From: Terriglobales bacterium
Lineage (GTDB): Bacteria > Acidobacteriota > Terriglobia > Bryobacterales > Bryobacteraceae
Direction of reading: 5' to 3'
Assembly: GCA_027485675.1 (NCBI GenBank)
Contig: JAIXQP010000020.1
Coordinates: 1-46,171, forward strand
Length of the DNA: 46,171 bases
The translations under genes and the position numbers were made by a program. This document shows positions 9,169 through 31,257 of the stretch, piece after piece. The notes beneath the pieces are model-generated. The model had not been told where the DNA came from, did not search any database, and saw only the letters and a program-made list of their open reading frames with translations. Each line of letters begins with the position of its first letter. Position 1 is the stretch's first letter.

Positions 9169-10491
9169 CTAAGTTTCGATATTGCCATCAGTTAGCTCGG
9201 TAGCTATCGGGATCTTCCGGGGCCGTCCCCGCTTCTTCTTCGGCTGCTCCGGCAGCAGTTCCACGCCGATCGCTACACACTTAGCCGCGAAGCCCAGTTT
9301 AGCCGCCCGCTGGCTCAGTCGCTTCAGTGTGCGTTGCGGATTCAGCTTATCGAAATAGTCGCCGCCTACCTCTCGATATACCGTCTGATCCCGAAGCAGC
9401 GCGTAAGCAATCACTAGAATCTGATGCGCCGTCGCCACCGCCGCCTTCTTCTTTCCACCCGCCCGCATCCGCCGCCGGAACACCGCCGTCAGATAGCAAT
9501 CCTTCATCCGCGACACCACCCACGCCGATTGACACAGTCCCCGGCGGATCCAACGGTTGCCGTGCCGCGTCCGCCCACTGTGCCGCTTCCCTGCGCTCTC
9601 GTTCATCCCCGGCACCAACCCCGCCCAACTGGCCGCGTGTTTCGCCGTCGGGAACCGGCTCATATCCACCCCCAACTCCGCCACCAGCGTCCACGCCGTC
9701 AGTAGATCCACTCCGGGGATCGTCAACAACCGCGTCACCTGTTCGTCGAAGGGTTGCATCGCCGCCGCCAATCGACGCTTAATCCGGCCAATCCCCTCCT
9801 CGGTCTGCCGCAGTTCGTCCAACAGTTCCGACAGCAGTTCGCGATGATGCTCTCTCACCCGGCCCCGGAACACCCGCCGCAGCTCGTCCTTCTTGCCCCG
9901 CAGCTTGCCCCTAGCGTAGTCGGCCAGCCAGCCCGGATCCGTCTTACCCGCCAGAATCGCCTGAAGAATCAGCCGTCCCGTCACGCCCAACACATCGCTG
10001 ACTACCGTGCCCAGCTTCAGGTTGGTGTCTTCGAGCACCTTCTCAATCCGGTTCTGAATCCGGTTCCGCTCCTCCACCTGCTTCACCCGCAGCCGGTTCC
10101 AGTCGCGGAGATCCTGACAGGCCACCGGCGGCACGAAGCTTGGCTTCAGCAAACCGCGCGCCAGCAGATCGGCGATCCACTCGGCATCGCTGGCATCGGT
10201 CTTCCGGCCCGGAATGTTGTGCATGTGGTACGGGTTGGCCAGCAGCAGTTCGCAGAGCCCGGTCAGCACATTCCACACCGGCTTCCAGTAGACGCCGGTG
10301 GACTCCATCGCCACGTGGGTCACCTTCTGGGAGAACAGCCAGAAGCGAAGCCGTTGCAACTCCCCCAGGTCAGTGGCGAAGGTCTTCAAGCGTACCTCCC
10401 GCTCGCCTTTCGTCCCCAGAACCAGGACGCAGGCGGTGAGGGAACCCTCGTGAACATCAATGCCGCAGCAGCGGCGATGAACGACTCTCAT
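9169..10491 (-). CDS. IS110-family transposase (bridge-RNA-guided recombinase type)
   Basis: The 440-residue protein has an N-terminal RuvC-like DEDD domain: Asp12 in GIDVHE, Glu63 in MESTGVYW, and Asp99/Asp102 in KTDASDAEW. A coiled-coil spacer and a helix-hairpin-helix-like LLTIPGVDLLTAWTLVAE follow. The C-terminal transposase domain carries the likely catalytic Ser in NESAGKRHSG (Ser299 or Ser305). All key residues are present, so it is probably active. The ATG at 10491 follows a perfect AGGAGG ribosome binding site. The C-terminal tail is basic (KKKRGRPRK). Members of this family recombine DNA guided by an RNA made from the non-coding end of the element. Confidence 0.95.
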   Translation of the reverse strand: MRVVHRRCCGIDVHEGSLTACVLVLGTKGEREVRLKTFATDLGELQRLRFWLFSQKVTHVAMESTGVYWKPVWNVLTGLCELLLANPYHMHNIPGRKTDASDAEWIADLLARGLLKPSFVPPVACQDLRDWNRLRVKQVEERNRIQNRIEKVLEDTNLKLGTVVSDVLGVTGRLILQAILAGKTDPGWLADYARGKLRGKKDELRRVFRGRVREHHRELLSELLDELRQTEEGIGRIKRRLAAAMQPFDEQVTRLLTIPGVDLLTAWTLVAELGVDMSRFPTAKHAASWAGLVPGMNESAGKRHSGRTRHGNRWIRRGLCQSAWVVSRMKDCYLTAVFRRRMRAGGKKKAAVATAHQILVIAYALLRDQTVYREVGGDYFDKLNPQRTLKRLSQRAAKLGFAAKCVAIGVELLPEQPKKKRGRPRKIPIATELTDGNIET

Positions 10492-10894: not shown

Positions 10895-11134
10895 ATGAAA
10901 ACCGCGCAGCCGAAAATACCACCCGTCGATAACAAGTTTAAACTTCAGCTGATCGAATCTGCTCTACGCAAAATACACGAGCAGCTAACCACCCGTGAGG
11001 AATTGAAAGCAACTCCTGGTGATCTCATCAGACTGATCGAAGCCCACGGCGAACTACAAGAGTTCAATAGCCCGAACGAGGTATTGGTGAGATGGATCGA
11101 AAAAGAACACAATCCTCCCAAGACCAAAGAGTAA
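10895..11134 (+). CDS. Small protein at head of virion cassette, possible small terminase
   Basis: This 79-residue, mostly helical and charged protein starts at an ATG with GAGGAAG about 10 bases upstream. It is the first gene of the virion cassette and overlaps the large terminase gene by 43 bases. The small terminase subunit, which recognises DNA for packaging, usually lies at this place, but this protein is shorter than most and I see no helix-turn-helix. I do not recognise the family. The role is inferred from position only. Confidence 0.6.
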   Translation: MKTAQPKIPPVDNKFKLQLIESALRKIHEQLTTREELKATPGDLIRLIEAHGELQEFNSPNEVLVRWIEKEHNPPKTKE

Positions 11135-12423
11135 TCGTTGATCGATCGATTTGCTACGATGCACTTCCTTCGCAACGGGCCTTTCATGACTGCGAGAGCC
11201 GCTTCAAAGGATTCTCGGGACCGATCGGGTCGGGCAAGAGCCAAGCATTATGCCACGAGGCGATTCGGCTCAGTTACCTCAATCCGGGAAGACAGGGGAT
11301 GCTAGCGGCACCCACTTTCCCCATGCTTCGCGATGCAACCCAGCGAAGCCTGTTCGACTTACTCGAACAAAGCCGAATACCCACATCATTTAATAAGGCC
11401 GAAAACTGCCTGACCATGCTCGATACGAACTCAAAGATCCTCTTTCGCAGTTTGGAGGACTTTGAACGACTTCGCGGAACGAATCTGGCTTGGTTCGGCG
11501 TTGACGAACTCACCTACTGCCGAGAAGAGGCTTGGCTTCGGCTCGAGGGACGCCTCCGGGATCCGAAAGCGAAGAGGCTAACCGGATTCGGCGTCTGGAC
11601 CCCCAAGGGTTTTGATTGGGTCTACAAACGATTCCTGGGTAGCCCGGTGGGAGACTACAAGGCGATTCTTGCTCAACCCAGGGAGAATCGGCACCTTCTA
11701 TCCGCCATTCCAGACTTCTACGACCGATTAAAAGAAAGCTATGACGAACGGTTTTACCAGCAGGAGGTTCTGGGCAGCTATCTGAACATTAGCGCAGGTC
11801 AGGCGTACTACAGTTTCGATAGAACCCAGAACGTCACCCCGTGCGCATACGATCCTGCCAGACCGCTGTACTGGGCACTAGATTTCAACGTCGACCCCAT
11901 GTCTTCAGTGGTGGTTCAAGTAATTGGCGACACAATTCACGTCATCGATGAGATCTCACTCTCTCGTGCCACAACATGGGACGCATGCGACGAATTCTTG
12001 CGTCGATTTCCCAACTGCCATGGATTAACCATCTTCGGAGACGCCTCGGGCAACTCCATGAAGACGACCGGACCAACCGACGCCGACGCAATCAGCACAT
12101 TTTTCCGAACGCGCAACATTCAAGGATGCCGGCTGGAGCTGCCAAAGCAAAATCCCGCTGTTCGCGAACGGATCCTCTTAATGAACAGCACTCTAAAGGA
12201 CGCGGCGGGAAGGCGGCGCCTACTGATCGCACCCCGATGCACGGAGCTGATCAAGGATCTCGAACAGGTCACGCTGCTTCCAGGAACGATGATCATCGAC
12301 AAGGGACATGATCCCAAGCGAACTCATCTATCCGACGCATTAGGATACCTGCTCTGGCAAGTGGTGAGCAACGACAGCCGGCAAACCGCCGGATACAAGA
12401 CCCGCCGTTTGCCGGGCTTCTAA
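11092..12423 (+). CDS. Phage terminase large subunit
   Basis: This is the motor that pumps DNA into the capsid and cuts it. The 443-residue protein is complete. It has Walker A GPIGSGKS (43-50), Walker B ending in Asp138-Glu139 (AWFGVDEL), and the RuvC-like nuclease acids Asp264/Asp268 (ALDFNVDP), Asp317 (IFGDASG) and Asp415 (HLSDALGYL). The start ATG lies inside the preceding gene, after a GAGG motif. Portal and scaffold genes follow on the same strand. Preservation of both active sites argues that packaging is, or recently was, under selection. Confidence 0.95.
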   Translation: MDRKRTQSSQDQRVIVDRSICYDALPSQRAFHDCESRFKGFSGPIGSGKSQALCHEAIRLSYLNPGRQGMLAAPTFPMLRDATQRSLFDLLEQSRIPTSFNKAENCLTMLDTNSKILFRSLEDFERLRGTNLAWFGVDELTYCREEAWLRLEGRLRDPKAKRLTGFGVWTPKGFDWVYKRFLGSPVGDYKAILAQPRENRHLLSAIPDFYDRLKESYDERFYQQEVLGSYLNISAGQAYYSFDRTQNVTPCAYDPARPLYWALDFNVDPMSSVVVQVIGDTIHVIDEISLSRATTWDACDEFLRRFPNCHGLTIFGDASGNSMKTTGPTDADAISTFFRTRNIQGCRLELPKQNPAVRERILLMNSTLKDAAGRRRLLIAPRCTELIKDLEQVTLLPGTMIIDKGHDPKRTHLSDALGYLLWQVVSNDSRQTAGYKTRRLPGF

Positions 12424-12518
12424 AATCAACGCGCGGGCGACGGCAGAGCGCCCAAAGACATTAAGGTGGCGCGGTTAAGCGCGCCGAAACACCCTCAAAT
12501 CAGCTAACAAGGACCCCC

Positions 12519-13931
12519 ATGGTTACACGTATCGATCAAGAACATGCGGAATATCGCAGCAAGCGCGAGCTTTGGAAGCGGTATCAAGATCTCTACACCG
12601 GAGGAGAAGGGTTCAAGCTCAACTCCGCGAATTACCTCATACCGCGCCAGAAGGAACCAGCGGATGTATATGGCGAGCGATTGAACCGGGTGTTCTATGA
12701 GAACTACATTGGCTCGATCATCGATTGGTACGCCGCTACGTTGTTCCGGCGGGAACCGGTGATCAGTCTCGAGGGCACCAACGAGTCTGCTCGTACCTTC
12801 TTCAGTGACTTTATTGAAGACTGCGACCGGAAAGGCACGAATCTGAGTGACTTTTACCGGCGGCAGATAACCGACGCACTGGTATACGGGGTCGGATATG
12901 CGCTAGTGGACTTTCCTCGGACTAACCATACAGCGTCAAGCCGGGCCGAGGAAGAGTTGCTCGGCGCGAGCCGGGCATACCTGGTGCACTGTAACCCGGA
13001 AGAACTGGTGAACTGGAGCCGAGACGAGCATGGGAACTTCGAGTGGATTGTTTTGCGGACCACGCATAGCTCCAAACGCAACATAGAAGACACGGAGAAT
13101 ACGATCGAGACTCGGTGGATTTACTACGACCGAGAACGCTTTAAGGTTTACCGGCGCACCATCCAGGCGGGGGTGGCCAAACAGGCCAACAGCGTGATTG
13201 AACTGGTCGACGAAGGCATCCACGGCCTGGCGAAGCTGGGCCGGGTTCCGCTGTTCGAATTCACGGTGAGCCAGGGTATGTGGCTGATGAACAAGGCGGC
13301 GCTGCTGCAACTGGAGCACTTCAACAAGTCGAACGCACTGAGCTGGGCACTCACGATGGGGTTGTTTGCGATGCCCGTGGTTTACAGCGATAAGACATTT
13401 GACCAAATGGTGGGCGAAAGCTACTTTCTCCAATTGGGCCCGGGCGACCGGTTCGGTTGGACGGAACCCGAGGGGAAGGTATTCGAAATCGCAACCCAGA
13501 ATCTGCACCGGCTTAAAGACGAGATATACCGGGTTTGCTACCTGATCGGGCAAGCGGGTCCGGTGGTGGGCGACAGCCGGCCTGTTTCCGGGTTAGCCAA
13601 GCAGCGGGACTTTGCCATTACCCAAGAGGTCCTGCGGAGTTTCGGTGACTCCGTAAAGGACGTACTGAAACGGGTCCTGAAGGCCATCGAAAACGTTCGC
13701 GAGGACGGGCTGCAGGTGAACGTCTCCGGATTGGATGAGTTTGATATCGGCGACTTTGCCAGCGAGGTCGATGACGCCTCGAAGTTGATGGGTATGGACA
13801 TCGATTCCCCGACATTGGCGAAACAGGTTTACAAGAAATTGGCGTTCAAGTATCTCTGCGATGAAAGGCAGGATATCAAGGACACAATCGCGCGCGAAAT
13901 CGATGACTGGTTTCTGCGTGGCGTTAAGTAA
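12519..13931 (+). CDS. Phage portal protein
   Basis: The portal forms the ring through which DNA enters the head. The 470-residue protein has the layout of the DUF4055/SPP1 gp6-like portals: an N-terminal region of Tyr/Arg-rich helices (YGERLNRVFYENYIGSIIDW), a central stem-like part, and C-terminal helices. It starts at an ATG preceded by AAGGA. A 95-base gap before it contains a 6-bp GC hairpin (GGCGCG/CGCGCC). It is followed after 12 bases by the putative scaffold gene. The length is normal for the family. Confidence 0.9.
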   Translation: MVTRIDQEHAEYRSKRELWKRYQDLYTGGEGFKLNSANYLIPRQKEPADVYGERLNRVFYENYIGSIIDWYAATLFRREPVISLEGTNESARTFFSDFIEDCDRKGTNLSDFYRRQITDALVYGVGYALVDFPRTNHTASSRAEEELLGASRAYLVHCNPEELVNWSRDEHGNFEWIVLRTTHSSKRNIEDTENTIETRWIYYDRERFKVYRRTIQAGVAKQANSVIELVDEGIHGLAKLGRVPLFEFTVSQGMWLMNKAALLQLEHFNKSNALSWALTMGLFAMPVVYSDKTFDQMVGESYFLQLGPGDRFGWTEPEGKVFEIATQNLHRLKDEIYRVCYLIGQAGPVVGDSRPVSGLAKQRDFAITQEVLRSFGDSVKDVLKRVLKAIENVREDGLQVNVSGLDEFDIGDFASEVDDASKLMGMDIDSPTLAKQVYKKLAFKYLCDERQDIKDTIAREIDDWFLRGVK

Positions 13932-13943
13932 GGAGGAAGATGC

Positions 13944-14531
13944 ATGGATGAGAGCAAACAGGACCAAACACCAGCGGGACGCGGGGTCGATTTTCGGCAC
14001 CTGATTCAAGAAGCCGTACGCGAGTTCGTGAACTTGGAGCAGTCCAAGAGCGAACCGGCATACAAGGTTGAACTCGAGGAGGAACGGCGTCGCCGGGAAG
14101 CGCTGGAGCGGCGGATGAATGAATTGGTCGAGGAAAACCGCCGTAGCCGGTTAATCGCCGAGGAGGCAGAGCGCAGTTCTGCAATCCGGAGCGAACTGCA
14201 GCGTCTCGGCGTGCAGAAGCTTGACCTGGCATTCCGAGCCGTGAAAGACGATATCCAGCGGACCGAAGACGGCCGGCTGGTTGCCAAGACCACAGGCGGT
14301 GACGTTTCAGTGAAGGAGTTTCTGGCGCACTTTGTCAGCGAGAATCCTGAGCTACTTCCTGCCAGAATTACTGGCGGCTCTGGTGCTTCCCACAGCTCTA
14401 AGGCACCAGTGGCTTCACCGGTTGGTGGTTTTGATATTGACAAGATTCGGCCAGGAATGCCGAAGGAAGATCTGGAACGAGCTCGGCAAGAGATCTCCCG
14501 AATCGCTCAGCAGATCAACAGCTCCCGATAG
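13944..14531 (+). CDS. Putative capsid scaffolding protein
   Basis: The 195-residue protein is highly charged, with a long coiled coil at about 40-90 (EEERRRREALERR, NELVEENRRSR) and a low-complexity linker before a short helical C-terminus. This build and its place between portal and coat protein are typical of scaffolds, which shape the procapsid and then leave. No protease gene is present, as in P22-like systems where the scaffold exits intact. A strong AAGGAGG lies before the ATG. Function is inferred from position and composition. Confidence 0.75.
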   Translation: MDESKQDQTPAGRGVDFRHLIQEAVREFVNLEQSKSEPAYKVELEEERRRREALERRMNELVEENRRSRLIAEEAERSSAIRSELQRLGVQKLDLAFRAVKDDIQRTEDGRLVAKTTGGDVSVKEFLAHFVSENPELLPARITGGSGASHSSKAPVASPVGGFDIDKIRPGMPKEDLERARQEISRIAQQINSSR

Positions 14532-14580
14532 GCGATTCTGAATCCTCCGGCTGCTTCTTGCCACCGGAGGTCAGATTCGC
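14532..14580 (+). promoter_or_regulatory. Long hairpin between scaffold and coat genes
   Basis: Directly after the scaffold stop codon an imperfect stem of about 16 pairs can form. GCGA (14532-14535), TCTGA (14537-14541) and CCTCCGG (14544-14550) pair with CCGGAGG (14564-14570), TCAGA (14571-14575) and TCGC (14577-14580), around a 13-base loop. No T-run follows. It could be an mRNA processing or stability element for the coat transcript, or a DNA feature of the packaging system. Confidence 0.5.
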
Positions 14581-14641
14581 TTGTACAACTTCCCCGGCAC
14601 CATTCACGGCCGGAGCCATCCGGCCAGATAGAGACAATAAC

Positions 14642-14685
14642 CGCCCCGATGCCTTGACGGCCCGGGGCGCTTTCATTTAAGGAGA
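14642..14685 (+). terminator. Weak terminator or attenuator ahead of coat gene
   Basis: CGCCCCG (14642-14648) pairs perfectly with CGGGGCG (14673-14679) around a 24-base loop and is followed by CTTTCATTT. The long loop and broken T-run make a strong terminator unlikely. It lies just before the AAGGAGA ribosome binding site of the coat gene. Confidence 0.35.
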
Positions 14686-14691
14686 CATGAA

Positions 14692-15603
14692 ATGCCTGCT
14701 ATTACTTCGTCGAACGTTGCGAATGCACTGGTCAAGTTGGTTGCGGCGGACGCGCTGCCGGCCCTGATGGGCAACCTGGTGATGGGAAACCTGGTGAACC
14801 GGAACTTTGAGCCTTCCCTGGCTCAGGCTGGTGACACGATCAATGTTCCGATTCCGCCGACCCTGGTGGCGAACAACATCGCTCAGGGCGGCACCGTGAC
14901 GACCCAGAATCCGAGCCTGGGCAATGCGCAGATCGTTCTGAACACGCATGCCGAGGCGACGTTCCAGATTCCGGACGTTACGAAGGTGCTTGCGGTTCCG
15001 GATCTGCTCCGGCTTTACATGGAGCCGGCCGTGGTGGCACTGGCCGAGAAGATCGAGTCCGATCTGTTGTCGCTGTACTCGCAGTTCACGGCCAACACGG
15101 CGTTGGGCTTTGCGGGTTCTCCGATTACGGAATCCCTGGTGGACGAGGCCGAGACGGCCCTGTTCAATGCCAAGGTGCCTTCGGCTTCTCAGAAGTACCT
15201 GGTGGTCGATGGCAGCACCTATTCGCAACTTCGGCAAATTCCGCGCTTCTCGGAATACAACACGGCCGGTGAGGCGGGTGTGCGGGCGATGATCGACGGT
15301 TCGGTTGGGAAGTTGAAGGACTTCTTTGTGTTCCGTTCGCAGTTCGTCTCGAAGACGGGTTCGGCGCCGACCACGACGCAGAATCTGGCCTTTGCGAAAG
15401 ATGCCATCGGGCTCTGTGTTCGCCGGTTGCCGCAGCCGCTTCCGGGCACTGGCGCGATTGCGGAGTACTCGGAACTCGGCAATTTCGGCATGCGGGTGAT
15501 GATGAGCTACCAGCCGAACACGCTGGCTCAGCAGTTCACCGTCGATTGCCTGTATGGCGTTGCCGTACTACGGAACAACTTCGGCGTTCAGGTGCGTAGC
15601 TAG
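14692..15603 (+). CDS. Major capsid protein, P22 coat-like
   Basis: This is the shell protein of the particle. The 303-residue sequence shows features of the P22-type coat family with the HK97 fold: an N-terminal helix (NVANALVKLVAADALPALMG), a beta-rich DTINVPIPPT segment, a long spine helix around DLLRLYMEPAVVALAEKIE, and YLVVDGSTYSQL. The gene follows a putative scaffold and no protease gene, as in P22-like heads. Codon choice is strongly biased to frequent codons, as expected for a highly made protein. A perfect terminator follows directly. Confidence 0.88.
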   Translation: MPAITSSNVANALVKLVAADALPALMGNLVMGNLVNRNFEPSLAQAGDTINVPIPPTLVANNIAQGGTVTTQNPSLGNAQIVLNTHAEATFQIPDVTKVLAVPDLLRLYMEPAVVALAEKIESDLLSLYSQFTANTALGFAGSPITESLVDEAETALFNAKVPSASQKYLVVDGSTYSQLRQIPRFSEYNTAGEAGVRAMIDGSVGKLKDFFVFRSQFVSKTGSAPTTTQNLAFAKDAIGLCVRRLPQPLPGTGAIAEYSELGNFGMRVMMSYQPNTLAQQFTVDCLYGVAVLRNNFGVQVRS

Positions 15604-15611
15604 TTGACAGC

Positions 15612-15646
15612 GCCGGGCGGTTTCGACCGCCCGGCATTTCTTTTTT
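15612..15646 (+). terminator. Strong intrinsic terminator after coat gene
   Basis: GCCGGGCGG (15612-15620) and CCGCCCGGC (15627-15635) form a perfect 9-bp GC stem with a 6-base loop, followed by ATTTCTTTTTT. It lies inside the structural cassette, 9 bases after the coat stop codon and 14 bases before the next gene. It should lower transcription of all tail genes relative to the coat. Confidence 0.9.
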
Positions 15647-15659
15647 CACTGAGGGGACC

Positions 15660-15968
15660 ATGGACTTACGACGCTATTACGAGGCGATACAACGTATCGA
15701 GGAGCAGATTGCAGGGCAGGATGTCCTGGTAGTCAGCGAGGCGACTGCCGACGGAGGACGGCCGGGAGTTATCTCCGAGGTAACCCGGAACGCCGGAGCC
15801 CGATTAGTCGTGGAAGGAAAGGCACGCTTCGCGACGGCTGAAGAGAAGGCGAGTTTTCGTCAACATCGGCAGAAAGAGCCGATCGCACCATCGGCGCCGC
15901 AGCCTCCAACTGCTGCTGCCACAACAGTAACCAAGCAATCCGTCGTGCGTCGGGCCAGAAAGGGCTAA
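15660..15968 (+). CDS. Small virion-cassette protein of unknown function
   Basis: The 102-residue protein has a folded N-terminal part (VLVVSEATADGGRPGVISEV, then ARLVVEGKARFAT) and a basic, Pro/Ala-rich tail ending in RRARKG. The ATG follows GAGGGG. It lies between the coat protein and a connector-type gene, where head decoration or head-completion proteins are usual. I do not recognise a family; a head role is inferred from position only. Confidence 0.65.
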   Translation: MDLRRYYEAIQRIEEQIAGQDVLVVSEATADGGRPGVISEVTRNAGARLVVEGKARFATAEEKASFRQHRQKEPIAPSAPQPPTAAATTVTKQSVVRRARKG

Positions 15969-15980
15969 AAGGAACAGTTT

Positions 15981-16727
15981 ATGGCACTCTTTGTAGACCG
16001 CAATCCATCAGAACCGAGCGACCTCTCGCAGTACGAGAGCTCCATCTTTCAAACCGCTTCGACCGAGGGAATCGACCTGGTCGCCAAGGGAACGGTGGCG
16101 GCGCTCGAGATTCGGCTCGAGCTACAACGCTTTTTGTTGCGCATGGCCACGGCTGGGAGCATCGCAATTCACCAGGTCGTAGTCAACGATGCACTTCGCC
16201 GGTGGCACATCCTGCGGACGATCGCGCTGACGTACCAAGATGCGTACTTCCAGCAGCTCAACGAGCGTTATAAGTACAAACTCGATTCCTACAGGAACCT
16301 GAGTGAGTCGGCGTCGGAACTCTTGTTCGACACTGGTGTAGGAATCGCGTACTCGCCGATTCACCGGCCGGGAATTCCCACGCTTGGACAAGCCGTCGGG
16401 GCTCAACCAGCGAGCATTTGGTGGGCAAGCATCAGTTGGATCAATGCCCAGGGTGGGGAGAGCGAGGCGGGACCGGTCGTTTCGATCGCCACGGAAAACG
16501 GATCACGGTTGTTAGTTTCACCGCCTATTCATCCGGTGAACGCTGTCGCGTGGAATGTTTACGCCGGCCAGACGTCGGACGGGCAAATGAAGCAGAATAC
16601 GAACCCTCTTTCTCTGGGCGAAACATGGACGATGCCGGATGAGGGACTGCTCAGCGGCGTTTCCCCTTCGAAGGGCCAGGACCCCGAAGCGTTACTGCGT
16701 CGGACAGCAACCATCTTGAGAGGCTAA
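15981..16727 (+). CDS. Putative head-tail connector with Ig-like C-terminal domain
   Basis: The 248-residue protein has a helical N-terminal half (about 1-125). It is followed by an Ig/fibronectin-type domain, recognised by IWWASISWINAQGGESEAG and AWNVYAGQTSDG, which are strand patterns common in phage surface domains. It lies directly upstream of a tail terminator-like gene. Position and the helical part suggest a head-tail adaptor; the Ig-like part may sit on the particle surface. No named family was recognised. Confidence 0.65.
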   Translation: MALFVDRNPSEPSDLSQYESSIFQTASTEGIDLVAKGTVAALEIRLELQRFLLRMATAGSIAIHQVVVNDALRRWHILRTIALTYQDAYFQQLNERYKYKLDSYRNLSESASELLFDTGVGIAYSPIHRPGIPTLGQAVGAQPASIWWASISWINAQGGESEAGPVVSIATENGSRLLVSPPIHPVNAVAWNVYAGQTSDGQMKQNTNPLSLGETWTMPDEGLLSGVSPSKGQDPEALLRRTATILRG

Positions 16728-16731
16728 CCGA

Positions 16732-17226
16732 ATGGCACAGATTGCAACCATCGCCACCAAAACTCTCGAGAACCTGTTGCGGGCGCCGACGGGTCTGGCA
16801 AACGGACTGGCCGCGGTTAACATCCGCACCGGAAACGAACTGGCACCGCTTCGGGCAGGCCAGATTGTCGCGCAGAACATCGGATCCGACTTAGTGGAGA
16901 AGTCAACCGGGGTCCACTATCCGACGTACTTCGTTTATTGCGAGAAGCTGAACAATACCCTTCGGGAAAAGTTTCGACAGTTCTCGGGGACAGCAACTCT
17001 CGCAGTGGAAGTGCGCGTAACCCACGACCGGCTGGAACATCTTGCCAGCAGCGTCCAACACTACGTGGACGCTTTGACAGAGACACTGGACGCCAATAGA
17101 GGCGACTGGGGCGACGGACAGTTTTACACGGGCGGATACCAGATTTCATTCGGTCCTGTCAAAACCGGCGGCAAGAACTACCTCCAAGTTGCGAAAGCCA
17201 CTTTCGACTTACAGATCAGCAAGTAG
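16732..17226 (+). CDS. Putative tail terminator/completion protein
   Basis: The 164-residue protein has the alternating helix and strand layout of tail-completion proteins. Strands such as GTATLAVEVRVTHD are followed by the helix of HLASSVQHYVDALTETLD, with a final strand around YLQVAKATFDLQI. It lies between a connector-type gene and the tail tube gene, the normal place of the tail terminator. It begins 4 bases after the upstream gene. Family assignment is by layout and position. Confidence 0.65.
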   Translation: MAQIATIATKTLENLLRAPTGLANGLAAVNIRTGNELAPLRAGQIVAQNIGSDLVEKSTGVHYPTYFVYCEKLNNTLREKFRQFSGTATLAVEVRVTHDRLEHLASSVQHYVDALTETLDANRGDWGDGQFYTGGYQISFGPVKTGGKNYLQVAKATFDLQISK

Positions 17227-17236
17227 AGGAATTGAT

Positions 17237-18406
17237 ATGGCCTGCTATATTTCATCGAACCAGAACCGCTTTTATACGGCGCTCGAATCGGGCTTCGGGT
17301 TGACCGCGACGGTGTCGGCCGAGAACCGCATTCCGGCGATCCGGCTTACGATCAAGAACGAGACACAGACCGGACGACGACGGGACAAGACCGGAAGCCG
17401 CTCGCGTAGCGCCGTGCCAACCGGAACGCGAGACCAGACCGAGTATCGTCTCGAGACTTACTTGACGAATTGGGCGAACACAACGGCGGAGCCTGCGTAT
17501 GGCCCCTTGCTGCGGGGAGCGCTAGGAGCGGCACCGCAGTTCGACCCCGGGAAAGTCGTGGCATCCGTAGACGGGACCAACATCACGCTGGGGGGCCCCC
17601 ACGGTTTAGCGGTGGGACAGGCGCTCAGCTGGTCGGGAGAGCTCCGGTTCGTTGAGGCTATCGTCAATGCAACTACGGTGCGGCTCAATGCGCCGTTCAG
17701 CCAAGTTCCCGGTCCTGGTGCGCCGTTGAATCCAACAGTGACTTACAGCCCGGCGACCCAACTGCCGAGCGTATCCCTTTTCGACTACTGGAGCCCTTCG
17801 ACCGCAGTTCAAAGGCTGCTATCCGGCGGGGCGGTGGACGTGATGAAGGTAAAGATCAACGGCGACTTCCACGAACTCGAGTTTCAAGGCGAGGCTCGTC
17901 AGCTGATCGACAGTGCTTCCTTCACGTCCGGACTGGGGGCTCTGACCGAGTTTCCGGCCGAACCGACCGTGGGGGAACTGGACTATCAAATCATTCCGGG
18001 TCATCTGGGTCAGGTTTGGATGGGATCAACGCCTACCCGTTTCTTCACGTTGACCGATGCCGAGGTTTCGGTAAAGAACAACATCGACATGCGGAAGCGG
18101 GAGTTCGGGTTCGATGGTCCTCGCTGTCTGGCCGCCGGGGAACGCGAGGTGGGTTTGCGATTCCGGATTCTCGAGACCGACGACGATGCTACGAAGGGGC
18201 TGTATGCGGCAGCGCGCAATCGCCAGCCAATTTCCATCATGTTGCAACTAGGCGAACAGGCCGGGCAACTCTGTGGCATCTACATGCCGAACGTGATTCC
18301 TGAGGTGCCGGAGTTCGATGACCGGAATCCGCGGCTGGAATGGGCATTCGGGATGAGCCAAGCCAATGGCACGCTGGATGACGAAATCCGAATCGCTTTC
18401 GCCTAG
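17237..18406 (+). CDS. Putative major tail tube protein
   Basis: This protein of 389 residues is beta-rich. The reading frame is open from 17189, but I chose the ATG at 17237 because AGAGGA lies just before it and the upstream gene ends at 17226. An inserted segment (about 100-170) looks like an Ig-like surface domain. Strands such as VDVMKVKINGDFHELEFQGEA and FTLTDAEVSVKNNIDMRKREFG fit a tube protein with ring contacts. It lies directly before the tail chaperone pair, as tail tube genes do. Confidence 0.75.
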   Translation: MACYISSNQNRFYTALESGFGLTATVSAENRIPAIRLTIKNETQTGRRRDKTGSRSRSAVPTGTRDQTEYRLETYLTNWANTTAEPAYGPLLRGALGAAPQFDPGKVVASVDGTNITLGGPHGLAVGQALSWSGELRFVEAIVNATTVRLNAPFSQVPGPGAPLNPTVTYSPATQLPSVSLFDYWSPSTAVQRLLSGGAVDVMKVKINGDFHELEFQGEARQLIDSASFTSGLGALTEFPAEPTVGELDYQIIPGHLGQVWMGSTPTRFFTLTDAEVSVKNNIDMRKREFGFDGPRCLAAGEREVGLRFRILETDDDATKGLYAAARNRQPISIMLQLGEQAGQLCGIYMPNVIPEVPEFDDRNPRLEWAFGMSQANGTLDDEIRIAFA

Positions 18407-18415
18407 GGGGCCTTC

Positions 18416-18781
18416 ATGAACTACCAAAGCACCGTACGCAGCGAGTCGCAGTCGTTTCCAGGCGTGTGGTTCGAGATCAAGCGGCTGTCGCTTTCGGGCC
18501 GACTTGAACTTCTTCGCCTGGTCCGGCGGGAGGGACGCGATCTTGAATTTCACAGCGCTAGCGATGAGATGGCCGACCAGCTGAGGGCGCGGGAGATAGC
18601 CGCGTCGATCCAAGCCATCTACATTCGCTGGGGCCTCGATCGGATTGAAGGTCTGTGTATTGACGGGGAGGCGGCCAACCGGGACTCGTTGCTTGATAAG
18701 GGTCCCGAGGCACTCTGCACGGAGATCGCCGAGGCAATACGCTCCGAGTGCTTCCTGAGCGAGACAGAACGAAAAAACTAG
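18416..18781 (+). CDS. Tail assembly chaperone, short form (gpG-like)
   Basis: The 121-residue, mainly helical protein lies between the tail tube and tape measure genes, the fixed place of the lambda gpG-type chaperone that coats the tape measure during tail assembly. Its last codons are CGA AAA AAC TAG, so a classic slippery heptamer A AAA AAC (18772-18778) ends at the stop codon. Ribosomes that slip back one base would make a 231-residue extended form ending at 19110. The short form is made by normal termination. Sequence similarity to lambda gpG is not evident; the role rests on position and the frameshift signal. Confidence 0.82.
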   Translation: MNYQSTVRSESQSFPGVWFEIKRLSLSGRLELLRLVRREGRDLEFHSASDEMADQLRAREIAASIQAIYIRWGLDRIEGLCIDGEAANRDSLLDKGPEALCTEIAEAIRSECFLSETERKN

Positions 18782-18853
18782 TTGTCGCCTTCCACTTTCA
18801 ATTTGCGAACCAAGCCGCATGGAAGTGCGACACCTGCCGGCAACAAGGCTTGG
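18772..18853 (+). promoter_or_regulatory. Programmed -1 frameshift signal with H-type pseudoknot
   Basis: The slippery heptamer A AAA AAC occupies 18772-18778 in the exact zero-frame phase. After a 4-base spacer, 18783-18794 pairs with 18820-18832 to give 12 base pairs with a single bulged T at 18826. Within the loop, CCAAGCC (18810-18816) is perfectly complementary to GGCTTGG (18847-18853), giving a second 7-bp stem in pseudoknot arrangement. The loops of 15, 3 and 14 bases are long enough to span the stems. Slippage moves ribosomes into the frame that is open to 19110. Confidence 0.85.
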
Positions 18854-19110
18854 AGAAGAAGCGAAGGTGCGGGTTTCTGCCCCAACAGGCCGAAGCCTCG
18901 CGTCCCGTATGGATCAGAAAACACATCAGCAGTAGTGAGTGCCCGCGAAGTTACGTCACCAGCGACAGTGACACGTGGCTCGAAGAGTTTCATCTTTGGC
19001 GATTCGGCGGAAGACCGGACCTGATGAACTATCCAGCTAAGTCGGCGGAGGCTTTCACCATCCTCGAAAGCGAACTACTAAAGGAGCGAGACAATGGCGA
19101 ACGAATATAG
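18779..19110 (+). CDS. Tail assembly chaperone extension (gpT-like, read by -1 frameshift)
   Basis: This open frame continues the gpG-like gene after slippage at 18772-18778 and adds 110 residues. It carries a zinc-finger-like CDTC pair (Cys-x2-Cys), a third Cys in RRCGF and a fourth in SECPRSYVT. A helical end follows (SAEAFTILESELLKE). The frame has no good start of its own. The GTG at 18748 lies inside the upstream gene without a ribosome binding site. In lambda the T part binds the tail tube while G binds the tape measure. The end overlaps the tape measure start by 17 bases. Confidence 0.8.
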
Positions 19111-19762
19111 ATGGGAGGACCTCCAACGGGAGCTCCTTTCTCGCGGACACCTGTCAGCGGAGAGTGAGAAGGACGCAGATCTTTTGGGTGGGACGGCGGC
19201 CGGCGCAGCGATTCAAGAGTTATCGAAGCAACTCGCTGGACCGGCTCAGACGCCGACTCGGCCGGCATCGGCAGGCACAATACTAGGACAGACAACCGCA
19301 GCCTTGTCCAAAGGCGTTACGCTGTCTCCGCTGACGAAAGACCTGGCGACCACATCCAGCAACTTCCTTCTCAAAGGATTGACGTTGGCGCCCTTAATCA
19401 GAGGGTTGTTCAGTCTGTTCCGCAAAGAAGATGACACGGAACCTGTAGCGCCCGTCCGTTTCAGTCTTCCGGCCCCAATACGAACCGAGGCTGGATTGGC
19501 GCCGGACGGGCAGACAGTATCGATCGACCGCGGTGCTGGGGACCGAATCCGGACACTTCGGCAACCCGAGAGTCAATCGGTTCAGGGAGAAGCAGGGCGG
19601 AGCGGGGTTGCCGCCTCGAATGCTCCGACGCAGAACATCACGGTGCAGGTGAACGCGATGGATAGCCGCAGTTTCCTGGATCACAGTGAAGACATCGCGC
19701 GAGCTGTGCGGGAAGCGATGCTTCATTCTCATTCCATCAACGATGTGGTGAACGACCTATGA
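19094..19762 (+). CDS. Very short tape measure-like protein
   Basis: The 222-residue protein follows the tail chaperone pair, the place of the tape measure. It has a central hydrophobic part (about 75-112, LTLAPLIRGLFSLF) and ends with a segment typical of tape measure C-termini (ITVQVNAMDSRSFLDHSED, then IARAVREAML). Tape measures fix tail length, at about 1.5 angstrom per residue in well-studied phages. This would give a tail of only some 30-35 nm. The gene overlaps the next by 4 bases. Deletion of the usual long helical middle is an alternative explanation. Confidence 0.7.
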   Translation: MANEYRWEDLQRELLSRGHLSAESEKDADLLGGTAAGAAIQELSKQLAGPAQTPTRPASAGTILGQTTAALSKGVTLSPLTKDLATTSSNFLLKGLTLAPLIRGLFSLFRKEDDTEPVAPVRFSLPAPIRTEAGLAPDGQTVSIDRGAGDRIRTLRQPESQSVQGEAGRSGVAASNAPTQNITVQVNAMDSRSFLDHSEDIARAVREAMLHSHSINDVVNDL

Positions 19763-20115
19763 ACTCCTTTCCCAAACTGAAGAGCGGCGCGATCATGCAG
19801 TGGCCGGCGGTTCGCGAACGAAGGTTCGAAACGGAGGTACTGGAGTTCGCTGACGGTTCCGAACAGCGATTCCGGCATTCTCCGGCCGGAGTGCGCCAAT
19901 GGATCGTGAGACTGGACGATTTGGATGAGGGGGAACTGAGTATGTTGGAGTCCTTCTTCGCTCAGGAACAGGGGGCATTCGGCACCTTCTCTTTCACAGA
20001 CCCGTGGGATGGCACGGTCTACGCCACCTGTCGATTTGACAATCCAGCCTGCGTGGCGGAGTACCGGGCGTTCCATCGAGGCGGCACCACATTGATCGTC
20101 CGCGAGGTGAGGTAA
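19759..20115 (+). CDS. Distal tail protein, DUF2460-like
   Basis: The 118-residue protein shows the pattern of the DUF2460 distal-tail family: an N-terminal strand with a charged FADGSEQRF turn, then RLDDLDEGELSMLESFFAQ and GAFGTFSFTDPWDG. Proteins of this family join the tail tube to the hub, also in the RcGTA gene transfer agent. The gene overlaps the tape measure-like gene by ATGA, and a paralogue follows 7 bases downstream. Confidence 0.75.
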   Translation: MNSFPKLKSGAIMQWPAVRERRFETEVLEFADGSEQRFRHSPAGVRQWIVRLDDLDEGELSMLESFFAQEQGAFGTFSFTDPWDGTVYATCRFDNPACVAEYRAFHRGGTTLIVREVR

Positions 20116-20122
20116 CAGGGCT

Positions 20123-20917
20123 ATGGCATTCTTTCCCCAATTGTCTACAGGTGCGATAAGTCAGTTTCCCCTGCAACGGAGGCAACTCTTTCGAGTAATC
20201 GCAAACCGACTGTCGGACGGCAGCGAGATCCGGAGCCTGGACCCCTATGGGGCACGACTTGGCCTTGCTCTCGGCTTCGATGGCCTGTCGGACGCCGAGA
20301 TGGAGACGCTCGAGGAGTTTTTCATCGAGCAAGAGGGACGCCGAGGAAGTTTCGGCTTCTTGGATCCAGGGCTGAATTTACTGCGTTGGAGCGAGGACTT
20401 CGAGCGAAGCGTTTGGACCGCCGGGCCTCTACTGTCGCAGACAACGGGGCAAGCCGACCCCTGGGGAGGCCAGCGAGGTACGGCCTTCGTCAATACGGCA
20501 ATTGCACCGCAGGCCATAGTCCAGGCGATTGATGCGCCAGGCAGCTACACCTATTGTTTCAGTATCTGGATGCGAAGTCCGACTTCCTCACTGGTGACGT
20601 TACTGGCTTCCTCTGGCGGTTATACCCAAACGGAAGAGTGTCGACCCACGGCGGCTTGGAAGCGATTCCACATGCGAGTCAGCCTTCCGAGCAGCGCCAG
20701 TTCCATTGGATTCGGCTGGGAGATGGGGGCGGGAGCTGCCGTGGAGGCCGTTGGAGCCCAGGTGGACGCTCAACCTTCGCCAGCAGCGTACCGCCGCAGT
20801 ACCTCCCGACATGGAGTTCACACCAGCGTTCGTTTCGCGATGGATTCTCTGGCCCGGACTACCCACGGACCGAATGACCATAGCACCACAGTCTCTTTAA
20901 TTACCCGCGCGTTCTAG
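20123..20917 (+). CDS. Second DUF2460-like distal tail protein with carbohydrate-binding-like domain
   Basis: Residues of about 1-85 repeat the domain of the upstream gene (ANRLSDGSEIRSLD, then DAEMETLEEFFIEQEGRRG and FGFLDPG). The remaining 175 residues start LLRWSEDFERSVWT and form a beta-sandwich-type region like the carbohydrate-binding or fibre domains of phage tail proteins. The pair looks like a tandem duplication in which one copy gained a surface domain. The C-terminus is odd in composition but the frame is unbroken. Confidence 0.72.
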   Translation: MAFFPQLSTGAISQFPLQRRQLFRVIANRLSDGSEIRSLDPYGARLGLALGFDGLSDAEMETLEEFFIEQEGRRGSFGFLDPGLNLLRWSEDFERSVWTAGPLLSQTTGQADPWGGQRGTAFVNTAIAPQAIVQAIDAPGSYTYCFSIWMRSPTSSLVTLLASSGGYTQTEECRPTAAWKRFHMRVSLPSSASSIGFGWEMGAGAAVEAVGAQVDAQPSPAAYRRSTSRHGVHTSVRFAMDSLARTTHGPNDHSTTVSLITRAF

Positions 20918-20941
20918 CCTCGCGGCCCACGGAGCCCCACT

Positions 20942-23900
20942 ATGCCGACGATTCACGAGATAAAGGAGCAAGAACTGCTCGAAACGCCAGTACTTCTGTT
21001 CGAGTGCGAGTTACGGAATGGACAGCGACACTTCTGGGCGACTCATCGAGTCGACTTTGAAGGTGTTGTCTACGAAGCAAGGCTGCTCGAACACACGGGC
21101 TTCGACATCCGCGCCTATTCTGAAGACGGGATTGACGCTTCAGCGAAGGTTAGTCTCGTCTTGGCCAATGCAGACTCCCGCTATTCTCAATTGGAACGAA
21201 CTATCGGATTCAAAGGATCCCGACTGCACGTACGGTTTGTGTTTTTCGACCTGGCGGCAAATGCCCCGGCTTCGGAGGCGATCACTGTATTCCGTGGCTT
21301 GGGGAACGCTCCGGATCAGATTCGGGAATCGACATTTCGGGTCACGTTCAACAACCGGCTGAATTTTCAGCGGATTCTATTACCCGAGGTTCGCATACAG
21401 AAAAGGTGTCCGTGGCTGTTTCCAGCTACCGCCGAACAGCGGGTTGAAGCGATCACGGGTGGCTCCAAGGGAGTTTACTCGCCGTTCTTTCGATGTGGCT
21501 ATTCGGCTGGAATTGCGGGTGGCGTCGGCAATTTGAATGGTGACGTGCCCTTTGAAAGCTGCGACTACACGAGAAAAGCTTGCACCGAACGTGGGATGTT
21601 TCGCCAAGATTCGCTCGTTCAGATTACGCGCCGGTTCGGCGGAATCGAGTTCGTTCCCTCTTCGATCGCCGTTCGAGGACATGGTGACAAGGTATTTTCG
21701 GTGTCGGCGGTCCAACCGAATGAGGCAAAGTACAACGACTTCGTTCCCGTGGTCTATGGCACCTGCTGGGTTCAGCCACCAATTACCCTCGCTAGAAACG
21801 ACGGAAACCTGACGCGGATGGAAGCGCTCGTGGCACTCGGCGAGATCGAAGGAATCCTGACCGTTGTGGTCAACGACGTGGAGATTCCACTCGCCAATGA
21901 CGGGGCCAATATGACCGCGACGGGATGGTACCACTGGGTAGGTAAGGGTAACCGGACCGGAGATTTCAACCTGAATTTCGCGGACGCTTTGGGGCAGCCA
22001 CTCGGTGATCCATACGGAAGCATGGCGTACTTGTCCATCGTGGTTCCGAACAGAATTCAGGATGGCCGGTCGCTACCACGGGTGCAGGTCCTGGTGAAAG
22101 GCTCGAAACTGCCGATCTTCGATACTGCCGGTGAGCCACTTCCGGACTCACACACGAGCAATCCCGCTTGGATACTCCTGGATGTTCTTCGGAAGAGTGG
22201 TTGGACGCTCGATGAGGTCGATCTTCCCAGCTTTAGCAGTACGGCAGCTTACTGCGACGACCCGATCGAGACTGTTGACCTACATGGAAATCCACTCCAG
22301 ATTCCCAGATTCCAATGCAATCTGACGCTGCGGCGCCGCCGGAGTGCCGCCGAAGTGATCCGAGGGATCCGGAACTGCGCCGGACTTTACTTGACGTTCG
22401 GCCAGGCTGGCACACTGCAGTTACGCCAAGAGTCTACATTAGGGGTGCAGCAGCCGGTTCAGTCGCCCGGTTCCAATGCTTCGACGCCGCTGTTTGGCGG
22501 TTGGGCCGCCTATGAGTTCGATGAGGGAGATATCCTTCGGGACACGAACGGAGAACCGCGGGTGCGGGTTTACTCTCGAAACTCGGCGGATACTCCGAAT
22601 CGCTATAGCGTGGAGTTTCAAGATGCCTTCAACGAATACCAGCAGGATTCCTTCTCACTACTCGATTTAGAAGACGTGGTGACAGTCGGACAGGAAATCA
22701 GTGCCTCACTTCCTGCACTCGGGCTGGCTAACTTCGACCAGGCGTCGAGAGTAACGAAGCTCCATCTGTTGAAGAGCGTTCGTGGGAACGTCTACCTGGA
22801 GATCATGACTTCGGTGAAGGCGCTGGGAGTACAGCCGGGCGACCTGGTGACCGTGTCGTATGCGAAGGAGGGTCTGGATCGGCAGCTGTTCCGGGTTCTG
22901 CGCCTTACCCCCGGACAGAATTTTCGAACCGTTCAGTTGACGCTGCAGTGGCACGATGAGAGCTGGTATGTCCAAACGGCTGGTAAAGGAATGGAATCTT
23001 CAGGCCGGCAGCCACGTTATGAGTTGGGGCTTCCGCGTCCACTCATTGGTACCGTGTTGGACGAGGACGGCAATCCGCAACTTGGAGTGGTTGAGACCTA
23101 CACGGAGGAGACTGACGGTCGAGCAAGAACAGAGCTTTCCGTCGACTTCTACGAGCCAAGAAAGCCGGCATCATCGCGGGCAGGAATTCCGCTGCTTTCC
23201 CTTAGTCCTTCGACGGAGCCGATTGGCGGATCACTGGCGGGTGATCAAAACCTTTACTATGCACTTACGGGTTCAGACGCGGAGGCTCGAGAGGGGGGAA
23301 CGTCTTTCATTGTGAGGGCGGTGATTCCTCCAGGCAGCAATACCAACTTAGTGACCTTAACAGGACTGAGCTTTGGTCCAGGTACAGAGTCGTTCAGCGT
23401 TTATCGGGGCCCAACGCCGCAGCAACTTTCCCGAATCGGTTCCGATCTGCCTTTGGCCTCCTCTTTCGTTGACACTGGATTGGCTGCCGGGCTGATTTCA
23501 CCACCGGACGAGAACTTCTCTCACGCCAATTTTTACTGGCGGTTGGAACTGCAGGGCGAGTGGCCAGCGACGGTTTCCTCGTTGAATACGATCGGCAATC
23601 CAGTGCTTACCATGTTGGCCAACGAGTGGCGGACCAAGACGGTTCGAATCACGAAGGGCAAAGGGCTGGGACAGGAGCGGCGGATTGAGTCGAACACGGC
23701 TACAGAGTGTGTTTTGACGGAAACATGGGCAATCGTGCCCGACGCCTCAAGCAGTTGGGTGATCATCGACTCGAGTTGGATTCCCGCAGCTACAACTTCA
23801 TCGAGTCCGGCGAGGTTTGAAGTGCCAAACCGGGAAGGCGCGACCCTGCAGGTGACGGGACGGGCGGCGAACGCCAGTAACCGGGAATGCTCTCCAGAGT

Positions 23901-24856
23901 TGTCTCCGGTGACGCGGTGGCGGCTGAACGGGTCGAGCGGTGCTCAGTTAGACATTGATGTGCCGCCGGCACCGACCTTTGCACTCAGCACGACAGGGGA
24001 CGGAACCATTGAGATTCAGTCAATCGGGTTTCCAGAACTTGTAAACACAAGAACGGTTACAACCGGAACCTTAGTTCTGCATTACTGGGATGAGTTACGA
24101 AATCCGTCAGCAACAGTTCTTTCGGGCGCTTTGGACGTCTCGTCTGACGTGTTGGTTCTGTCAGCACCGGGCCAGGTGGCGGTGAACCAAATCGTTCAGA
24201 TCGGCCAAGAGCTGCTCGAAGTGCTCGCAGTTTCCACGGAAGGAACTTCGATTCAAGTCGTCAGGGGTGCATTCGGATCTCTGGTCTCGAGTCATGCGAT
24301 CGGTACAGCAGTGTATCCGCTAGACTCGCGGGCGGAGATTATGCCTTTCGGACGAGACTTCTTCGGATCTCCAGCAAGCGGCAGCTATGCATTTAGTATT
24401 CACCTGCCTGCTGTTCGGGTGGCGGGCGCCAGTCTGTATTTGACAAACACTCGGGGCAACTCGGTAGTGTCGAATCGCAGTGTCACAAACACTCTGGACG
24501 ACGGACTGCGCACGATGCAGGGTGGACAGATCAATATCCAGTTGGAAGGCTGGCTTGCGATTGAGGACTCGGCGACTCCCCCGGTTTTCGTGGACCGGCC
24601 GTTGACGATCCGAGATATATTCGCCATCGTACAGGAGGCACCCAGCGGGGGCCCGGTGACGCTTCGGCTGCGCCAGGACAACGATTTACTCTGCGTTCTG
24701 ACGATTGAAGCTGGAGCGACGCTTTCCAATGTAGCGGAGGGGTTTTCCCTACCGCCGTTGCGAAATGGGGCCTATCTCCACCTGGATATCGTTAGCCTCT
24801 CGCAGAGTTGGGAGAGTACGCCAGGCAGCGACCTTACTGTTACGATTCGGCTTTGA
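20942..24856 (+). CDS. Tail hub/tip protein, gpL-like N-terminus fused to gpJ-like body
   Basis: The 1304-residue protein is the largest of the cassette. Residues of about 1-220 resemble distal minor tail proteins and hold four Cys (156, 185, 207, 214), the last two spaced by six residues as in the iron-sulfur site of lambda gpL. The next part (about 220-690) is hub-like, with PVVYGTCWVQPPI and RNCAGLYLTFGQAGTLQLR. The C-terminal 600 residues are Ig/fibronectin-like beta domains, for receptor contact or adhesion. Separate gpL-like and gpJ-like genes are the more usual arrangement. The gene is intact. Hub function is inferred with good confidence, the cluster site less so. Confidence 0.82.
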   Translation: MPTIHEIKEQELLETPVLLFECELRNGQRHFWATHRVDFEGVVYEARLLEHTGFDIRAYSEDGIDASAKVSLVLANADSRYSQLERTIGFKGSRLHVRFVFFDLAANAPASEAITVFRGLGNAPDQIRESTFRVTFNNRLNFQRILLPEVRIQKRCPWLFPATAEQRVEAITGGSKGVYSPFFRCGYSAGIAGGVGNLNGDVPFESCDYTRKACTERGMFRQDSLVQITRRFGGIEFVPSSIAVRGHGDKVFSVSAVQPNEAKYNDFVPVVYGTCWVQPPITLARNDGNLTRMEALVALGEIEGILTVVVNDVEIPLANDGANMTATGWYHWVGKGNRTGDFNLNFADALGQPLGDPYGSMAYLSIVVPNRIQDGRSLPRVQVLVKGSKLPIFDTAGEPLPDSHTSNPAWILLDVLRKSGWTLDEVDLPSFSSTAAYCDDPIETVDLHGNPLQIPRFQCNLTLRRRRSAAEVIRGIRNCAGLYLTFGQAGTLQLRQESTLGVQQPVQSPGSNASTPLFGGWAAYEFDEGDILRDTNGEPRVRVYSRNSADTPNRYSVEFQDAFNEYQQDSFSLLDLEDVVTVGQEISASLPALGLANFDQASRVTKLHLLKSVRGNVYLEIMTSVKALGVQPGDLVTVSYAKEGLDRQLFRVLRLTPGQNFRTVQLTLQWHDESWYVQTAGKGMESSGRQPRYELGLPRPLIGTVLDEDGNPQLGVVETYTEETDGRARTELSVDFYEPRKPASSRAGIPLLSLSPSTEPIGGSLAGDQNLYYALTGSDAEAREGGTSFIVRAVIPPGSNTNLVTLTGLSFGPGTESFSVYRGPTPQQLSRIGSDLPLASSFVDTGLAAGLISPPDENFSHANFYWRLELQGEWPATVSSLNTIGNPVLTMLANEWRTKTVRITKGKGLGQERRIESNTATECVLTETWAIVPDASSSWVIIDSSWIPAATTSSSPARFEVPNREGATLQVTGRAANASNRECSPELSPVTRWRLNGSSGAQLDIDVPPAPTFALSTTGDGTIEIQSIGFPELVNTRTVTTGTLVLHYWDELRNPSATVLSGALDVSSDVLVLSAPGQVAVNQIVQIGQELLEVLAVSTEGTSIQVVRGAFGSLVSSHAIGTAVYPLDSRAEIMPFGRDFFGSPASGSYAFSIHLPAVRVAGASLYLTNTRGNSVVSNRSVTNTLDDGLRTMQGGQINIQLEGWLAIEDSATPPVFVDRPLTIRDIFAIVQEAPSGGPVTLRLRQDNDLLCVLTIEAGATLSNVAEGFSLPPLRNGAYLHLDIVSLSQSWESTPGSDLTVTIRL

Positions 24857-24874
24857 TTAAAAAGGGGACATTGG

Positions 24875-29643: not shown

Positions 29644-29657
29644 TTCAGGAATCTTCG

Positions 29658-31233
<1,576 letters not shown>

Positions 31234-31257
31234 ACTCGTGAGTCCGGGCCAGTCCCT

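Follow-up and report, generated by a model that had tools for sequence, protein, structure and literature searches.

A conserved slip site and a covarying RNA pseudoknot in a putative tail-assembly chaperone gene of Bryobacterales suggest -1 frameshifting

The DNA analysed here (the window) is a stretch of 46,171 nucleotides from a Terriglobales bacterium (contig JAIXQP010000020.1 of assembly GCA_027485675.1). It contains a 16.6-kb head-tail cluster on the + strand (11092-27661), recognized by Pfam and PHROG matches and by gene order, which extends from the terminase gene starting at 11092 to the gene of a TIM-barrel tail protein ending at 27661. The cluster comprises genes for terminase, portal, a 195-aa protein, a P22-like coat protein, three small proteins, a tail protein, the G/T locus, a tape-measure-like protein, two DUF2460 proteins, a J-like/Phage-tail_3 protein and the TIM-barrel protein; every gene with a family match encodes a head or tail function. 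The host genes ilvB-ilvN-ilvC-leuA follow at 27916-32874, and a gene for an IS110-type transposase (9169-10491) lies just upstream of the terminase gene.

The G/T locus starts with the ORF of a putative G-like tail assembly chaperone, 121 codons plus TAG (18416-18781, + strand), and is directly preceded by a tail protein gene (17237-18406, + strand; phrog_290, minor tail protein). The 3' end of the G ORF reads CGA AAA AAC TAG. Because A AAA AAC occupies positions 18772-18778 and TAG positions 18779-18781 (both + strand), the slippery heptamer is in phase and touches the 0-frame stop codon, exactly as the initial annotation had it. Starting at the heptamer, an open -1 frame reaches 19110 and codes, from the shift to a TAG, for a domain of 110 residues termed T (18778-19110, + strand). 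The product lengths predicted earlier, 121 and 231 (121 + 110) residues, agree with these open frames. A short tape-measure-like gene (19094-19762, + strand, 222 aa; weak PHROG tape-measure match, E 0.025) starts directly downstream and overlaps the end of T.

The slip site is followed by two helices with the geometry of an H-type pseudoknot. A 12-bp stem with one bulge had been described as beginning four bases after the heptamer, and such a stem is indeed found in the window (5' arm 18783-18794, 3' arm 18820-18832, + strand), the bulged U at 18826 being the first base of an invariant Cys codon. The outermost U-A pair, however, forms in only 55% of 141 relatives, therefore the conserved stem 1 is 11 bp long (5' arm 18784-18794) and is preceded by a 5-nt spacer, which is within the distance of about 5-9 nt at which stimulatory structures are placed. 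Stem 2 connects CCAAGCC in the loop of stem 1 (18810-18816, + strand) with GGCTTGG (18847-18853, + strand); the complementarity noticed in the initial annotation holds for 7 of 7 pairs. The pseudoknot loops are 15, 3 and 14 nt in the window, and the energies of the isolated stems are -15.6 (stem 1) and -10.8 kcal/mol (stem 2). Nested folding of the window sequence recovers stem 1 (z -2.2; 6 of 200 shuffles fold equally well). A combination of at least 11 pairs in stem 1 with at least 6 in stem 2 arose in 7 of 1000 shuffled sequences, and 84 of 4000 positions chosen at random in the window offered it too. In a single sequence this layout is only moderately unlikely, and it is the comparative evidence that decides.

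A homologue of G was found in 49 of 101 genomes (the bacterium's own and those of relatives) and in 40 of 69 genera, as a single copy in 48 of the 49 genomes. The remaining 52 genomes had no G match; among the good genomes the corresponding number was 41 of 80. In wider samples 59 of 299 genomes from the class contained a G homologue, and 4 of 396 from the phylum contained T, two of these four matches being weak. IMG/VR yielded at least 548 relatives of T among the 600 pattern-matching stretches listed, whereas none of the GenBank phage records searched matched the T domain. The 80 relatives kept of 106 that were named carry titles of Acidobacteriota (for the most part Bryobacterales, Bryobacteraceae, Solibacteraceae or plain Acidobacteria/Terriglobia), with the exception of one titled Acidimicrobiia. 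These titles, mostly Bryobacterales or Bryobacteraceae, bear out the earlier view of the cassette as probably acidobacterial.

The T profile matched 214 loci in collections that overlap in loci. Leaving out two N-masked and three distant loci gave 209, which were thinned to a non-redundant set of 148; seven of these (with indels, N or short) were omitted from the codon tests, which used 141 sequences. A smaller alignment (A3) of 45 sequences was derived from 51 loci by removing L031, L015, L035, L049, L050 and L051, and alignments A1 and A2 cover 40 of the 45. Gene neighbourhoods were compared in 20 relatives, picked for long contigs out of the 49 matching genomes.

The slip site is almost invariant. 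The non-redundant loci carry AAAAAAC in 144 cases, AAAAAAT in three and GAGAAAC in one, and AAAAAAG in none of the 148. Among all 214 loci AAAAAAC is in phase in 205, AAAAAAT is found in three and GAGAAAC in one, the close homologue L018; the others are the two N-masked and the three distant loci. When the homologous cassettes were examined for loss of the heptamer, a canonical X XXY YYZ motif in the phase of the 0 frame was seen to be retained in 147 of 148 loci, counting AAAAAAT. The distant loci have A AAA AAC in phase (L134), A AAA AAA (L135) and a G-rich run replacing the heptamer (L049, encountered again as L299, a second copy in one genome). In 14 further loci A AAA AAC or AAT was found in 6 of 6 main copies and in 6 of 8 divergent or second copies. 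The 0-frame stop abuts the heptamer in 127 of the 148 loci (TGA 87, TAA 36, TAG 4), is one codon further in 16 and lies 66-195 nt downstream in five; L035 has the heptamer and a stop 195 nt downstream. Lack of queuosine in the host tRNA-Asn was considered as a reason for the use of AAC over AAG and was rejected, as 18 of the 21 genomes searched have tgt, among them all 14 that are at least 90% complete.

In the 45 aligned sequences 90.9% of the stem cells can pair, compared with 86.2% after column shuffling, a baseline that retains the relatedness among the sequences, and with 31-43% for slid 3' partners. As the stems lie in T coding sequence, pairing was also compared with that obtained after synonymous codons had been shuffled across the 141 non-redundant sequences with every amino acid fixed. 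Observed pairing was 94.2% in stem 1 (92.1 ± 0.25 in the shuffles, z 8.2) and 94.4% in stem 2 (91.5 ± 0.26, z 11.4); none of 1000 shuffles reached the observed value for either stem. The excess of stem 1 comes almost entirely from one pair, between the third base of an Ala codon and the third base of a Lys/Arg/Asn codon, since most of its pairs hardly vary. That of stem 2 is distributed over three pairs, such as the third base of a Gln codon with the first base of a Leu codon (CAA/TTG, CAG/CTG). The codon-aware signal is located where the codons are free. When 1850 column pairs were ranked by z, stem pairs took ranks 1-3; of the four pairs at ranks 4-7, one belonged to the stem-2 diagonal and the other three to no part of the structure. 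Of the 19 stem pairs only 6 had sufficient freedom to be ranked, two of them standing at 172 and 900. Among 3486 seven-bp helices the stem-2 diagonal came first by excess pairing, whereas by plain pairing two invariant diagonals without covariation outranked it.

Compensatory changes were counted on a tree from which the tested region had been excluded. The 15 variable pairs gave 29 double compensatory branches, 14 of them in stem 1 and 15 in stem 2, whereas eight slid controls that kept the codon phase gave 0-3; 88 branches break a stem pair. Three lineages with CCA GCC (L016, L021, L027) and one with CCA ACC (L039), where others have CAG GCC, appear by eye to have stem 2 shifted by one base, with matching GGG/CGG. 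Elsewhere stem 2 is broken or shifted, for example in L026 and L022; in a minority of lineages it is weak or out of register. Inspection for loss of pairing in the second stem found it mostly maintained, with the covariation and compensatory changes given above, and a covarying helix that joins the loop of stem 1 to downstream sequence is what defines an H-type pseudoknot. Free searches also found the knot: at least 10 pairs in stem 1 and 6 in stem 2 were available in 137 of 148 loci, versus 43 of 500 shuffles. With lower thresholds (at least 9 and 5 pairs) a knot was detected in 10 of 12 later loci and in neither L287 nor L289; for L286, L291, L295 and L296 some of 40 shuffles matched the observed knot. 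Excess synonymous identity is greatest over the signal: the top 15 seven-codon windows are confined to residues 118-144 of the fusion, at ratios of up to 1.65 (median 0.99). Coding insertions near the knot occur in 7 of 209 loci, and all of them fall on the loop-1 side of stem 2, after residue 7 and before Trp15.

T is conserved as a protein. The alignment of 40 sequences has 11 invariant columns, so that conserved -1 coding extends past the 0-frame stop, and four cysteines (C17, C20, C31 and C55 in T numbering) are invariant in 40 of 40. The extension had been called a zinc-finger-like Cys-rich domain; it is Cys-rich, and the evidence for the zinc-finger part of that name consists of these four cysteines. 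An AlphaFold2 model of T has a pLDDT of 91.9. Searches of Pfam and of PDB sequences gave no match for the T domain of the window, PHROG gave none for the window's T and one among the 40 members (E 0.0099), and a fold search with the model returned nothing at E 0.001. T is nearly without counterpart in the libraries searched. The order tail gene, G/T, tape-measure-like gene, DUF2460 gene was found in 20 of 20 neighbourhoods, the tape-measure-like gene being present in all of them, which corresponds to the position of G/GT genes between tail-tube and tape-measure genes, with the reservation that the tape-measure assignment is weak. A single structural match in favour of a chaperone is at noise level. 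From the gene order and this match we infer a chaperone role; G and G-T most likely represent a tail-assembly chaperone pair.

These observations support the frameshift-pseudoknot interpretation of the initial annotation, as both the heptamer and stem 2 are kept among relatives. We consider it highly probable (about 0.93) that the locus uses a canonical pseudoknot-stimulated -1 frameshift to make putative G and G-T tail-assembly chaperones. Ribosomes ending G would have AAA at the P site and AAC at the A site, and would be detained by an H-type RNA pseudoknot (11-12 bp in stem 1, 7-9 bp in stem 2) that starts some 5 nt further on. In the minority of cases both tRNAs would slip back by one base onto AAA AAA, and translation would resume at CTR (Leu), adding the 110-residue Cys-rich T domain to give G-T (231 aa). 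The unshifted majority would yield G (121 aa), terminating immediately at the stop codon, which directly follows the slip site. G would then coat the tape-measure protein, and the T part would bring the tail-tube subunits. The sequences show the site, the frame and the RNA structure, with their conservation; the shift itself, its efficiency and the chaperone role are predictions.

The role of the second stem could be questioned, as stem 1 is the more stable helix and might drive shifting as a simple hairpin, the complementarity of stem 2 being a by-product of coding. A few lineages do lose stem 2 yet keep the heptamer, and in one sequence the layout has a chance of about 1-2% of arising by accident. 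It is hard to reconcile such a by-product, which we regard as very improbable, with the codon-aware excess being larger in stem 2 than in stem 1 (z 11.4 vs 8.2), with stem 2 being the top helix by excess pairing, with its share of 15 of the 29 double compensatory branches, or with the register-shifted compensation apparent by eye in the CCA GCC lineages L016, L021 and L027 and in L039 with CCA ACC.

T might alternatively be made as a separate protein by termination and reinitiation at the G stop, which falls inside the open region of the T frame. Of 148 loci, 97 have an ATG, GTG or TTG in frame with T, either upstream or up to +60, 25 of them having GTG at -30; however, 51 loci have none of the three between the upstream stop and +60, ATG between -100 and +60 occurs in only 12 of 148 and the GTG at -30 in only 25 of 148, so no candidate start codon is conserved. 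Reinitiation also gives no account of the heptamer, of its phase or of the pseudoknot, and its probability appears smaller still. Least probable of all is transcriptional slippage on the A run, by which mRNAs would exist in both frames. Runs of at least six A are found in 147 of 148 loci, but six A is a short run for bacterial transcriptional slippage, and neither a pseudoknot nor a fixed codon phase would be expected from that process.

Frameshifting stimulated by a pseudoknot, the reading that we prefer, is a mechanism already known; it is the strength of the evidence and the setting that stand out. In viral H-type -1 frameshift pseudoknots of the coronavirus and retrovirus type an X XXY YYZ heptamer and a short spacer precede a stem 1 of 11-12 bp, and the second stem is formed from the loop. 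The layout described here is alike, but it occurs in a bacterial phage-like gene, with both stems in a coding region under dual constraint. The slip site of phage lambda is G GGA AAG, and we know of no pseudoknot associated with it. The present locus differs from lambda in the slip site, A AAA AAC abutting the stop, in the covariation-supported 3' pseudoknot, and in a T domain with four invariant Cys and without a Pfam, PDB-sequence or confident fold match. It resembles lambda G/GT, as presented in a review (PMC5009743, citing Xu, Hendrix and Duda 2004, 2013, 2014), in that G is made alone and as a -1 extended G-T form, with the slip near the 3' end of G and the genes between those for tail tube and tape measure. 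The tail assembly chaperone of HK97 (PDB 2ob9) is also among the closest known systems. According to the PRFect paper (PMC10885494), 3679 SEA-PHAGES genomes contain 2397 tail assembly chaperone genes that are joined; these annotated frameshifts concern the same gene pair, although no GenBank phage record searched matches the T described here.

The full pseudoknot is densely supported, by coding-aware covariation, compensatory branches, synonymous constraint and a family-wide slip site, therefore the locus should be a good model for the evolution of an RNA knot inside a coding region. Preservation of the signal argues, in line with the initial annotation, that the tail genes are in use in a phage-like cluster widespread in soil bacteria, so that whether Acidobacteriota have a gene transfer agent can be tested directly.

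All 20 chosen relatives have fourteen of the cluster genes, in collinear order, and 15 of the 20 have the TIM-barrel gene. The lengths of the ORFs vary little across 21 genomes in a comparison that left out T, and g13944 in genome G058; the coat protein, for example, has 303 aa in 19 genomes and 304 in two. The P22-like coat (14692-15603) is 99% identical to that of genome G017 and 73-87% in the other 19 genomes, where the values for G are 37-49%. The dN/dS ratios, obtained for two genome pairs, were 0.01-0.29 where dS was finite (for the pair G000-G017 dS was saturated for 5 of 14 genes) and indicate purifying selection on the structural genes, as in gene transfer agents. The cluster adjoins the ilv-leu operon in 6 of 21 genomes (including the window, G050 and G024), on opposite sides in different genera.

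No integrase or replication genes were found among the Pfam and PHROG matches of the window's cluster genes, and the ilv/leu operon is adjacent, which is the host-gene setting of a gene transfer agent; in two other genomes the flanks were read by eye only. Among the IMG/VR records tested (44 of 80) the coat was present in all 44 and the integrase PF00589 in two, once inside an inserted element. Judged from its genes, the cluster would fit a gene-transfer-agent-like element or a long-lived provirus family. A more specific proposal is that of a domesticated particle-making element of Bryobacterales, a GTA-like viriform with a P22-like coat, in which the G to G-T ratio set by the pseudoknot has been selected across dozens of genera long after phage life; we hold it tentatively, at somewhat less than even odds. 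In 16 genomes (excluding G058) distances in rpoB and in the cluster correlate (r 0.69; 0 of 5000), and the trees share 5 of 13 splits and contain well-supported conflicts. A flanking gene is shared by only 19 of 210 genome pairs. The tree conflicts and the few shared flanking genes count against simple vertical descent.

The gene transfer agent RcGTA contains tail genes of the DUF2460 and Phage-tail_3 types, as does this cluster, but its coat is HK97-type, whereas the cluster described here has a P22-like coat and belongs to another phylum. RcGTA, according to PMC10883770, is a head-tail cluster of alphaproteobacteria and mostly vertically inherited; the present cluster is likewise made up of head and tail genes. 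Among the open-licence papers listed for gene transfer agents in Acidobacteria or outside the alphaproteobacteria, no title or abstract opening reports one in Acidobacteria. A 2025 paper (PMC11924767) describes Bryobacterales proviruses of a group (i) with shared gene order, whose hosts include Ca. Solibacter usitatus, Bryobacterales bacterium KBS 96 and Paludibaculum. Having the same host order and a shared gene order, and being called proviruses there, they are probably this cluster, which would then already be in print; the words 'frameshift', 'gene transfer agent' and 'domesticat' are absent from its main text. For Ca. Solibacter usitatus PMC3174227 states that neither an intact nor a degenerate prophage was found, and PMC5900883 lists one prophage. 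The latter draws two prophage clusters, mostly of Granulicella and Terriglobus relatives. Two scaffolds of Acidobacteria bacterium KBS 96, which PMC11924767 assigns to group (i), appear in one of the two.

Several neighbourhoods depart from the common arrangement. In two of the 44 IMG/VR records, L300 and L301 (the records of L181 and L137, respectively), an insert of 9.8-16 kb interrupts the coat gene close to its 3' end, with a resolvase-type recombinase beside the coat remnant. One insert also contains a tyrosine integrase together with a type I restriction-modification set. A check at the split coat genes detected no att repeat. The neighbourhood of the order-level relative G068 (L048; L276-L277) contains about 3.5 kb of extra ORFs (208, 114, 242 and 601 aa) between the tape-measure-like and DUF2460 genes. 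L287 (G615:C1) and L299 (G058:C156) are second, divergent cassettes with a longer stretch from T to DUF2460, in genomes that have the main one as well, and are possibly relatives from active phages. In L292 (G049:C154) opposite-strand G matches abut at the contig end, which is probably an assembly artefact. IMG/VR lists the cluster as a virus, and 10 of the 80 kept records (L136-L215) are 16.1-16.9 kb, approximately the length of the cluster, the longest being 27.6 kb.
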